A DNA stretch of 39,121 bases, from positions 1,146,063 through 1,185,183 of the forward strand of contig NZ_JOKH01000001.1 of assembly GCF_000722635.1 (NCBI RefSeq). Direction: 5' to 3'. The notes beneath the pieces were generated by a model that saw only the letters and a list, made by a program, of their open reading frames with translations, was not told the origin of the DNA and did no database searches. This document shows, piece after piece, positions 12,433 through 15,737 of this stretch. The translations under genes were made by a program, and so were the position numbers. This DNA comes from Endozoicomonas numazuensis (GTDB lineage Bacteria; Pseudomonadota; Gammaproteobacteria; Pseudomonadales; Endozoicomonadaceae). Positions within the stretch are counted from its first letter, which is position 1. Each line of letters starts with the position of its first letter.

Positions 12433-13410
12433 ATGAATCTTTCCAGACTGAACCTTAACCTGCTGCCCGGCCTGAAAGCCCTGCTGGACACTCAGAGTGT
12501 TTCCAAAGCCGCGCAGATGATGTGTGTTACCCAGTCTGCCATGAGCCGAACGTTGGCTCAGCTTCGGGAAGCATTGAATGACCCGATTCTGATCAGAAAG
12601 GGCAATCGAATCTTTTTGTCCGAGAAAGCGGTGTCTCTGCACGAAGATGTGAACAGGGTGGTCTCGGAAGCCAGCAGCATCTTTGAAAACCAGCAGTTTG
12701 ATATAGCAACGACCCAAAGACATTTTCGGATCGCTTCAGGACACACAGTTCTGGAGCGGATTCTGCCAGAAGTGTTGCAAAAAATCTGGGCTGTGGCACC
12801 TGGGCTGACCTTTGAGTTACAGGCGATAAACCCTGCTGTGGATGTCGCGGCGGGCAAGCTTGATTTGTCCATAGGTTATATGGGTCTTCAGGGAGAGGGG
12901 TTGTCCAGTTTTTCATTGATGAAAGACCGGATGTGCCTGATTCTTTGTGACAACCACCCTCTGGCTCATGAGTCTTTTTCAGAGGAGGCGTTAAAGTCGT
13001 TCTCCTTTGTTGTCCAGCGGGACAATATGAACCTGCATCAGCAGGGAGAAATTAACAGTTTTCTCCGTACCGTGCAGGTGAAAACCTGGTCTCCCAGTCT
13101 TTCTGTCAGTCTGGCACTGATCAAGAGAACCGATTGTGTTTTTCTTGCTCCTGCCTCCCTGTCGATGTTTATGGAAGATCTTTCAGGCTTTGTCATCAGG
13201 GAGTGCCCACAAAGCATCCCGGACGTGAGCTTTAATATTGTCTGGCCTGAATACTGGGAGCTGAACAGAGCCCATCGATGGATGAGAGAGTTTGTTAGAG
13301 ACGAGCTGCTGGAACATATCCAGAGTAAAGAGCTGGATATGTTCATGAGTGAATCTGAGCGGGGTCAGGAAGAAGAAAATGTTTCCCTTCCTGACCCGGA
13401 ATCTCCTTAG
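12433..13410 (+). CDS. LysR-family transcriptional regulator
   Basis: The N-terminal 60 residues are a LysR winged helix-turn-helix: LNLLPGLKALLDTQSVSKAA, then VTQSAMSRTLAQLRE and DPILIRKGNRIFLSEKA. The rest (about residues 90-300) matches a LysR co-inducer-binding domain. LysR regulators usually bind as tetramers upstream of a divergent target and respond to a small metabolite, which cannot be predicted here. The upstream neighbour is divergent (152-aa gene), and the gene is convergent with ilvM, whose stop codon it overlaps by 3 bp. Five 19-bp repeats lie upstream. At 325 aa the length is normal; the last 25 residues are an acidic tail. No strong ribosome-binding site is visible at 12433. 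Confidence 0.9.
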   Translation: MNLSRLNLNLLPGLKALLDTQSVSKAAQMMCVTQSAMSRTLAQLREALNDPILIRKGNRIFLSEKAVSLHEDVNRVVSEASSIFENQQFDIATTQRHFRIASGHTVLERILPEVLQKIWAVAPGLTFELQAINPAVDVAAGKLDLSIGYMGLQGEGLSSFSLMKDRMCLILCDNHPLAHESFSEEALKSFSFVVQRDNMNLHQQGEINSFLRTVQVKTWSPSLSVSLALIKRTDCVFLAPASLSMFMEDLSGFVIRECPQSIPDVSFNIVWPEYWELNRAHRWMREFVRDELLEHIQSKELDMFMSESERGQEEENVSLPDPESP

Positions 13411-13697
13411 AAGATACTTTCCTGAGTCATGGTATTAGCCGCCATGGGCTGGCGAACATAGAGGACGTCATAAAGTTTCTCAATCTGGCTGGTGAGCATT
13501 TCAATAGGGCGCTCACTGCAGACATCCAGATCTGCAGACACCATTTTTCCACACTCAGAGCTGCTCATGGAGCAGCTCTCAAGATCAAACCCCCTGTGTC
13601 TGACTACGCGCAGGAGCCGTTCCATCACCTCTGGTTTTTTATGGCACTGAATGGTCAGTGAATAGTTTGTTTTCGGTGATTGTTGGGAAGAGCTCAT
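13407..13697 (-). CDS. ilvM: Acetolactate synthase II small subunit
   Basis: This 96-residue protein has the ACT-like regulatory fold of the IlvM family: [32 protein letters not shown] and a C-terminal [10 protein letters not shown]. It associates with IlvG to form the acetolactate synthase of isoleucine, leucine and valine biosynthesis in the cytoplasm. Its start overlaps the ilvG stop by 4 bp, the usual sign of translational coupling in this operon. ilvE, ilvD and ilvA, which follow ilvM in E. coli, are absent here; instead the convergent LysR gene abuts and overlaps the stop codon. Confidence 0.92.
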
Positions 13698-15340
13698 GCG
13701 CTTGCCTCCATCATTTCGTGGTTAGCGGAACCAGGTGGCACCAGGGGCCAAACATTTTCTCGTTCATCAATGCAGACATGAAGAATTCTTGCACCCGGTG
13801 TCTGGAGCATTTCATTCAGAGCCGGAAGCACTTCCTGTCTTTTGGTGATCATTCTGCCTTCAATGCCAAATGCCTTGGCCAGTGTTACAAAGTCGGGATT
13901 GTCCGAAAGATCGGTTTCACTATAACGCTGGTCAAAGAAGAGCTCTTGCCATTGCTTAACCATGCCAAGACGCTGGTTGTCGAGTAAGACAATTTTGACG
14001 GGAAGTTGTTTTCGTTTGATAGAAGCCAGTTCCTGAACATTCATCATGAAAGAACCATCCCCTGAGACCAGTATTACGTCGTCTTCTGGTCTTGAAATAG
14101 CTGCACCTATGGCTGCTGGGAGACCAAACCCCATTGTTCCCAGGCCTGCGCTGGAGAGGTGGTTGGAGGGATGATAAAAGCTCATGTGTTGGGCTACCCA
14201 CATCTGGTGCTGGCCCACGTCACAACTGATCACTGTGTTTTCGCTGGTGGCTTCGGATAACTGTTTCAGAAGCAATGGTGCAAAGATATCTTCACCGGGT
14301 TTGTCGTAGCACCATTGGCTGGAGGCACGGCTGGTTTTGCAGTGCTGTAACCAGTGATTTTTTTCGAGTGCAATAGTCAGACTGTTGAGGTTTTTTTTCA
14401 GGCAGCCGCTCAGGCTGACGTCAGCAAGGCGACGTTTTCCAAATTCTGCTGGGTCGATATCGAGGTGAACAACTTTAGCGTTGGGAGCAAAACGCTCAAG
14501 TTTGCCCGTTACCCGATCATCAAAACGCGCTCCGATAGCCACTAACAGATCGCATTCCTGAACTGCCAGATTGGCAGCCCGGGTTCCATGCATACCTAAC
14601 ATGCCAAGATAGGCATGGTCGTCAGGACGAACGGCGCCAATGCCTTTCAAGGTGCAAACGCTGGGGATGCCGGTTCCTGCCAAAAATGCCCGAAGCTCTC
14701 CCACTGCATTGGCCATTCCCACGCCTCCACCGATATAGGCAACCGGTTGGCTGCTCTTCTGGAGTAAGGTGATGGCCTGGTTGATTTTGTCAAAACTGTC
14801 AGAAGCTCTTTCCTCAATCACATCAAGAGGTGGTGCATAGTGGGCCTCTGCCTGTTGAACATCTTTTGGCAGATCAACCAGCACAGGACCAGGGCGGCCA
14901 GACTGAGCCAGAGCAAAAGCTTTGTTGAGTGTTTCGCAGATATCGTTCGGATCTGTCACCAGAAAGCTGTGTTTTGTGCAGCTCAGAGTCATTCCTAAAA
15001 TATCGATTTCCTGAAAGGCATCGGTGCCCATCATGGCGGTGGGTACCTGACCAGTGATGGCAACCAGTGGAATAGAATCCAGCATGGCGTCAGATAACGC
15101 TGTGATCAGATTGGTGGCACCGGGACCTGAGGTGGCAATACAGACTCCGGTTTTACCACTGGCTCTGGCATAGCCGATAGCGGCAAAAGCGGCCCCCTGC
15201 TCATGCCTGCAAAGCAGATGTTCAACATTGGATCCCAGAAGGGCGTCATACACCGGCATAATGGTACCACCGGGATATCCAAAAACGTGCTGGATACCAC
15301 GTTGAGAGAGGTTCTTTACCAGTGCATTAGCGCCGTTCAT
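13694..15340 (-). CDS. ilvG: Acetolactate synthase II large subunit
   Basis: The enzyme condenses two pyruvates, or pyruvate with 2-oxobutyrate, to acetohydroxy acids using thiamine diphosphate, FAD and Mg2+. The catalytic Glu lies in [19 protein letters not shown], and the thiamine diphosphate-binding motif [17 protein letters not shown]...[14 protein letters not shown] is complete. The FAD-domain and C-terminal domain sequences are intact, so the gene looks functional. I place the start at ATG 15340, giving 548 residues, the length of E. coli IlvG; an upstream in-frame start would add 34 unlike residues. It overlaps the small membrane-protein gene by 14 bp at its start and ilvM by 4 bp at its end. 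Regulated by the ilvL attenuator. Confidence 0.97.
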
Positions 15341-15539
15341 GGGGCTGTTCTCTCTTCTGCTGGGGATGAACTTCTGCCTTGATACGTGCCGGCTTTTGAG
15401 TGTTGTGTTCAAACCACTGCTGCAGAGAGAAAAACGCGGCAACAGGGAGGATAATCAGTAACAGTTCAGGAAAACTGACGACAGCGACAATGACCAGGCT
15501 TAGAACAGCAATGATCAGTGTGTTGTTTACGTTTAGCAT
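15327..15539 (-). CDS. Small Ile/Leu/Val-rich membrane protein in the ilv operon, 70 aa
   Basis: The ATG at 15539 has a good ribosome-binding site (AAGGA, 8 nt upstream), and the stop lies 14 bp inside ilvG, which argues for a real, translationally coupled gene. Residues about 6-42 form one or two hydrophobic membrane helices, where more than half the residues are Leu, Ile or Val; a Phe-Pro-Glu turn (SFPELLL) separates them. The C-terminal 28 residues are basic and hydrophilic ([18 protein letters not shown]), predicted to be cytoplasmic. It lies after the attenuator and before ilvG, the position of the tiny ilvX of E. coli, but is far longer. I do not recognise a family. Its function is unknown; its composition would make its translation sensitive to branched-chain amino acid supply. 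Confidence 0.7.
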
Positions 15540-15604
15540 GGCTCTATCCTTTCTGTTCGGAGCAAGACTCTTTTTTGCTCCCGGGTTTTACAGACCCCAA
15601 ATAT

Positions 15605-15638
15605 GAAAAAACCCCCGGACCTTTCGGTGCGGGGGTTT
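15605..15638 (-). terminator. ilv attenuator (rho-independent terminator)
   Basis: On the minus strand the stem AAACCCCCG...CGGGGGTTT (15630-15638 with 15609-15617), extended by ACC/GGT inside, is followed by a run of six T. It lies between the ilvL leader peptide and the small membrane-protein gene, as the attenuator of the ilvGMEDA operon does in E. coli. Confidence 0.92.
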
Positions 15639-15676
15639 CCTGGAAACTCTGATCTGTCAGCCAACAGACCCCCGCG
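15629..15676 (-). promoter_or_regulatory. Antiterminator pairing for the ilv attenuator
   Basis: In the RNA, GCGGGGGT near the end of the leader ORF (plus coordinates about 15668-15675) is complementary to ACCCCCGC (about 15629-15636), the 5' arm of the terminator. The two pairings exclude each other. A ribosome stalled at the branched-chain codons would leave this antiterminator free to form. Confidence 0.75.
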
Positions 15677-15737
15677 CGATGATGTTAATCACCACGACTA
15701 GTAGCATAATAATGTTGCTGAGGGGGGTAAGTTTCAT
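15657..15737 (-). CDS. ilvL: ilv operon leader peptide, 26 aa
   Basis: A 27-codon frame from ATG 15737 to TGA 15657-15659 encodes a peptide with 13 of 26 residues being Ile, Leu or Val, and ten of twelve in NIIMLLVVVINII. It lies 20-50 bp before the terminator in the same orientation as ilvG. When charged tRNAs for Ile, Leu or Val are short, the ribosome stalls within these codons and transcription continues into the operon. The sequence is unlike E. coli IlvL except for composition and position. The ribosome-binding site is weak. Confidence 0.88.
   Translation of the reverse strand: MKLTPLSNIIMLLVVVINIIARGSVG

Follow-up and report, generated by a model that had tools for sequence, protein, structure and literature searches.

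Between the ilv attenuator and ilvG of Endozoicomonas numazuensis lies a short open reading frame (ORF) rich in Ile, Leu and Val codons, whose end overlaps the ilvG start. That this ORF is conserved and maintained beyond chance is well supported by sequence comparison. We propose that it may act in cis as a leader ORF that would sense charged Leu, Ile and Val tRNA a second time after the attenuator and adjust translation of ilvG(M); we judge the chances of this proposal to be about even. The complete arrangement is more tentative, i.e., a tandem sensor in which the first element would control transcription termination and the second, the ORF overlapping ilvG, translation initiation, with the rare codon CTA tuning both.

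Layout of the ilvGM leader

The window, i.e., the whole stretch of 39,121 nucleotides that we analyzed, contains ilvG (acetolactate synthase 2 catalytic subunit, 13694–15340; NCBIfam NF006524, 943.8 bits, cut-off 738) and ilvM (acetolactate synthase 2 small subunit, 13407–13697; NCBIfam NF008362, 89.3 bits, cut-off 68). Both genes are encoded on the minus strand, as are all leader features described in the following. A plus-strand frame, LysR-like as named by eye (12433–13410), overlaps the ilvM end by 4 nt, and the operon hence seems to consist of ilvGM only, without ilvEDA.

On inspection and in folding, the layout preceding the ORF resembles a normal ilv attenuator. A leader peptide ORF of 26 codons (15657–15737, minus strand) encodes MKLTPLSNIIMLLVVVINIIARGSVG with clustered branched-chain codons. 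It is followed by a terminator hairpin with T-run (15606–15640, minus strand; −25.8 kcal/mol) and a competing antiterminator (−33.2 kcal/mol), the 5′ arm of which (15668–15675, minus strand) pairs with 15636–15629 in the fold of 15700–15622. The simple consensus scan for terminators gave 0 matches and hence passed over this hairpin, and an Rfam scan of the window returned no family at its threshold. Two small stem-loops are predicted in the interval between terminator and ORF (15559–15597, minus strand); comparable pairing is predicted in the related locus L090, partly in L091 and not in L093.

The ORF itself (15327–15539, minus strand) comprises 70 codons from an ATG, with CTA as codons 2 and 13, and is preceded by the ribosome-binding site AAAGGA (15547–15552). 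Its TAA stop is made by the GCT codon of ilvG Ala4, so that ORF end and ilvG start (15340) overlap by 14 nt (15327–15340). Length, good ribosome-binding site and overlap are thus as given in the original prediction, and its statement that more than half of the first 40 residues are Ile, Leu or Val (ILV) was confirmed as well (21 of 40). A weak candidate ribosome-binding site for ilvG, AAGAGAGA (15349–15356, minus strand), was assigned from the sequence and from counterparts in relatives and lies within the ORF. When we searched the window's own genome for a second copy of the ORF, only weak matches were obtained (E 0.15 or worse).

The distance from the terminator T-run to the ORF ATG ranges from 23 to 68 nt, with 66 nt in the window's own genome and 23–24 nt in eight genomes. 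A promoter of its own would hardly fit into the spacing of these eight, so that the ORF is very probably transcribed by read-through of the attenuator. A consensus scan for such a promoter found two matches (1.0 on average in shuffles, SD 0.9). Both lie on the plus strand and none on the minus strand, which says little since the scan gave none there for the attenuator itself either.

Conservation of the ORF in relatives

An IlvG search of 38 genomes of the family (E ≤ 1e-150) gave matches in 21 and none in 17. Our counts refer to the 17 genomes in which the ilvG start is readable and of the same type; eight belong to the window's genus and nine to a second one. Loci L106–L108, from two related genera, were left out for their different ilvG start type: there, the ilvG frame is open upstream to just past the terminator and no such ORF was seen. 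These three may carry an N-terminal ilvG extension of some 20–36 residues. Also left out was L109 (genome G027), where transposase-like sequence replaces the ilvG 5′ end; roughly the first third of the gene is gone, the match begins at residue 190, and a transposase-like frame, recognized by eye, lies directly upstream.

In 16 of the 17 genomes we found an ORF with its stop 14 nt into ilvG, and each of these frames is open back from the stop to an ATG preceded by a purine-rich site. A conserved frame of 60–80 codons had been anticipated between attenuator and ilvG; the position holds in these 16 genomes, at lengths of 70 (four genomes), 62, 61, 56, 38, 37 and 35 codons (seven genomes). An in-frame deletion in L091 removes nearly half of the ORF and retains cluster, frame and stop. 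The sole exception is L099 (genome G021), which lacks the ORF, keeps ilvG open, has GCA instead of GCT for Ala4 and carries AAGGGGG before ilvG. Loss or breakage of the ORF next to an intact ilvG, which the original prediction had named as speaking against it, is thus found in one of 17 genomes, and L099 is counterevidence to a sensor. The interval between terminator and ilvG is filled in L099 by a long inverted repeat that looks like a small mobile repeat insertion; the region folds at −87.7 kcal/mol.

With the 70-residue protein as query, the ORF was found in 5 of 58 genomes, the own genome included, a count that understates its distribution, probably because the short forms are too divergent. 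One record, L013, is titled Salinisphaera sp. G21_0 and has an Endozoicomonas-type ilvG leader; its name may be wrong. Among 72 outgroup loci (L017–L088; Aeromonas, Shewanella, Rheinheimera, Ferrimonas and others), we found no ILV-rich frame (>30%) overlapping ilvG. The nearest ILV-rich frames have 15 and 17 codons and end 32 and 51 nt before ilvG (L058 and L076, respectively). Nine of the 72 loci have a frame of at least 12 codons with an SD-like string that ends near the ilvG start, with an ILV content of at most 25% among the frames displayed.

The stop of the ORF depends on the wobble base of ilvG Ala4. This codon is GCT in all 16 ORF-bearing genomes compared with 6 of the 72 outgroup loci, 22 of which have Gln at ilvG codon 5, so that Ala4 alone could not make the stop there. 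Within ilvG codons 2–120, Ala4 is one of two invariant sites among 46 four-fold sites, and the neighbouring Gly3 varies. The 14-nt overlap places the ORF end over the ilvG initiation site in 16 of 16 ORF-bearing genomes.

Codon content and candidate functions

Branched-chain residues are concentrated at the beginning of the ORF. Pooled over the 16 genomes, ILV accounts for 217 of the 384 residues encoded by codons 1–24 and for 7 of the 192 encoded by the last 12, and all 16 genomes have 12–15 ILV in the first 24 codons, regardless of ORF length. The late depletion is partly forced, as the purine-rich ilvG binding site sits there.

Moreover, CTA is over-used about five-fold among the Leu codons of the ORF (31 of 120, pooled related set). 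Backgrounds were about 22 of 958 in ilvG genes (2.3%), 447 of 9177 in 225 ORFs, 50 of 1008 in the first 40 codons of these and 50 of 1015 in ILV-rich windows from 400 kb of the window's genome, where ORF set and ILV-rich windows were unfiltered for overlapping frames. As the genomes are related and the effective sample is small, we also counted a single genome per clade. One choice of genomes gave 9 of 33 (nominal P = 2e-5) and, with codon 2 disregarded, 6 of 29 (P = 0.0025); another choice gave 6 of 35 (P = 0.007) and, with codon 2 disregarded, 3 of 31 (P = 0.19). We regard a CTA enrichment in the ORF as likely but not overwhelming on these counts. Of the Leu codons in the attenuator leader peptides, 15 of 30 are CTA in the window's genus (8 genomes) and 5 of 23 in the second genus (9 genomes). 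For control of leu in E. coli, the portion of Elf and Ehrenberg (PMC1183508) available to us names CUA as the best-suited codon; we assume that Endozoicomonas tRNAs behave like those of E. coli for this codon. Codons for the same residue were identical more often in the ORF than residue-matched ilvG codons (0.73 versus 0.60 and 0.84 versus 0.69), but a column-wise test for invariant codons gave only P = 0.06 and 0.10.

Judging from this layout, transcripts reading through the attenuator would carry the ORF, and it would be translated only on transcripts already allowed by the first sensor. Ribosomes would enter at the ORF's own binding site and cross the early ILV codons, rare CTA included. 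With ample branched-chain amino acids, they would terminate 11 nt past the A of the ilvG ATG, cover the initiation region and limit ilvG. Upon branched-chain shortage, an early stall upstream of the ilvG ribosome-binding site would leave this site free and permit more ilvG translation; the peptide itself is probably a by-product. The sign of control, i.e., that stalling raises ilvG, is the least certain step. We favour interference relieved by stalling because positive coupling would lower ilvG on starvation, which is wrong for a biosynthetic gene. The preferred sign is weakened by single Ile, Leu or Val codons 10–31 nt before ilvG in 13 of 16 genomes, as a ribosome stalled there could cover the ilvG site. 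The original prediction had seen in the ORF a possible second layer of control after the attenuator. This regulatory reading is supported by position, overlap and ILV bias and gains further strength from the preference for CTA and the unvarying wobble base of Ala4.

The same features were weighed against a constitutive coupling cistron, which would bring ribosomes to the ilvG start and keep the start unfolded, with ILV incidental to a hydrophobic peptide and no sensing involved. The fixed overlap and the invariant Ala4 wobble base are consistent with coupling, and so is the ilvG site, only AGAGAG in the window but AAGGGGG in the ORF-less L099. Several ORF-bearing genomes, however, also have GAGG or GGGGG before ilvG, and coupling leaves unexplained the CTA over-use, the 12–15 early ILV codons at any ORF length and an ILV share that in 14 of 16 genomes lies above nearly all sampled membrane-like segments. 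We consider such a cistron rather unlikely. A translation attenuator of the ermC type, in which the ORF coding region would pair with the ilvG ribosome-binding site and stalling would open it, appears very improbable. In the window's own genome (L089), the SD is more closed than in 60 synonymous resamples (accessibility 0.05 versus a mean of 0.33), and the group with 35–37 codons shows a predicted 11-pair helix between ILV cluster and GGGGG site with 94.3% of cells pairing. Yet SD accessibility was unremarkable against resamples in 14 of 16 genomes and L093 was more open (0.79 versus 0.43), the 11-pair helix had 0 compensatory pairs in 8 sequences, and masking of stalled ribosomes in the folds led to mostly small and inconsistent opening. 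Sequestration of the ilvG site is hence unsupported across genomes by folding, ribosome masking and synonymous resampling.

We also consider it unlikely that the ORF encodes a small membrane protein with a function of its own, made together with ilvG and, e.g., anchoring acetolactate synthase or touching a transporter. The best 21-residue segment of the product has a Kyte-Doolittle mean of 1.85–3.06 and, judged from sequence, is hydrophobic enough to span a membrane; N-termini are similar (e.g., MLNVN, MLNLN, MLALN, MLNLI), and pN/pS is below 1. The latter amounts to 0.43 in the 70-codon group (0.33 in codons 1–30) and 0.69 in the 35–37 codon group, compared with 0.09 and 0.29 for ilvG codons 6–500, where the value of 0.29 includes windows spoiled by indels. 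Amino-acid constraint on the protein thus appears weak but not absent. Synonymous differences in the ORF (0.37 and 0.23) are below every ilvG window in both clades (8 and 15 windows), which speaks for the sensor. Against a protein function stand this weak constraint, the absence of any Pfam or NCBIfam family above its cut-off for the ORF protein, the lack of nearly half of the protein in L091 and of about half in the 35–37 codon group, and, likewise in this short group, the polar Thr, Ser and Asn that break up the segment. ILV makes up 0.81–0.93 of the segment's hydrophobic residues in 14 of 16 genomes, which exceeds the 99th percentile (0.80) of 228 membrane-like segments from 400 kb of the window's genome (mean 0.56; non-overlapping frames, segments dominated by one residue dropped); L093 (0.67) and L098 (0.75) are unremarkable. 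Earlier backgrounds (means 0.35 and 0.41) were discarded as they contained antisense frames and poly-Ala segments. Of the membrane microprotein originally predicted, the hydrophobic segment hence stands, whereas weak constraint and the high ILV share make the reading as a membrane microprotein a weak one, and nothing in this analysis favours a transport role. We favour the tandem translational sensor over a membrane protein with its own job, because ILV share, choice of codons and a second half that can be lost are more easily explained by a sensor, although none of the three is decisive against a protein.

Comparison with known leader systems

Amino-acid operons under ribosome-mediated attenuation are usually regarded as having a single sensor, which acts on transcription. 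If our proposal is true, adding a translational sensor to the same leader would make the response steeper or sharper. The ORF resembles the ilvL and leuL attenuator leader peptides in its clustered branched-chain codons and CTA preference; it differs in its location past the terminator, the lack of a second terminator and the overlap with a structural gene. As had been pointed out originally, E. coli has only the tiny ilvX at this position, and the annotated K-12 ilvX (L110, 1008–1058) is indeed located there. It, too, is short and has a ribosome-binding site of its own, but its 16 codons include none for Ile, Leu or Val, and its end lies 2 nt ahead of the ilvG start. In the absence of such codons, translation of ilvX could continue when branched-chain amino acids run short, contrary to what would be expected for the ORF described here. 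IlvX and the ORF gave no local alignment at E ≤ 100, where a 16-residue query has little power. Among titles and abstract beginnings of open-licence papers on ilvX with ilvG, none dealt with a role of E. coli ilvX, and open-licence papers yielded none on ilvGMEDA with an upstream open reading frame and none on Endozoicomonas ilvG.

Two further systems share single features with the ORF. Staphylococcus aureus rbfL is, in the accessible part of PMC13009471, a leader ORF over the SD of the next gene in which an amino acid is sensed via rare codons; it differs in having eight residues, pause codons that adjoin the next start and pausing that represses, whereas the control codons of our ORF are mostly placed well ahead of the ilvG start. 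Mycobacterial poly-cysteine uORFs (Canestrari 2020, as summarized in part of PMC13236596) are said to be amino-acid-responsive and to control translation of biosynthetic genes, but they involve cysteine, are leaderless and belong to another phylum. If true, our reading would be a warning against annotating such ORFs as membrane proteins. A search for further cases could be guided by control codons that mostly precede the next start by a good distance, by the use of rare synonymous codons and by a stop made from an invariant wobble base.

The leader peptide of Bacillus subtilis rtpA (anti-TRAP) reportedly has 10 residues and ends before the SD, and stalling on it is said to relieve interference. 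According to the part of PMC11255114 available to us, which cites Chen and Yanofsky (2003, 2004), translation of the anti-TRAP leader is regulated by tRNA-dependent ribosome stalling; an uncharged-tRNA transcription switch followed by tRNA-dependent stalling that acts on translation of the next gene would correspond to the order proposed here. In rtpA, however, a T-box forms the first layer and Trp is the amino acid concerned, in contrast to a ribosome-mediated attenuator and three amino acids here, and our ORF, with 35–70 codons, stops within the gene that follows. As a kind, tandem sensing through leader ORFs is known, and this variant would be new as far as the open-licence literature shows. 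If true, it would mean that the logic described for a Gram-positive Trp regulator has also been reached in proteobacteria.
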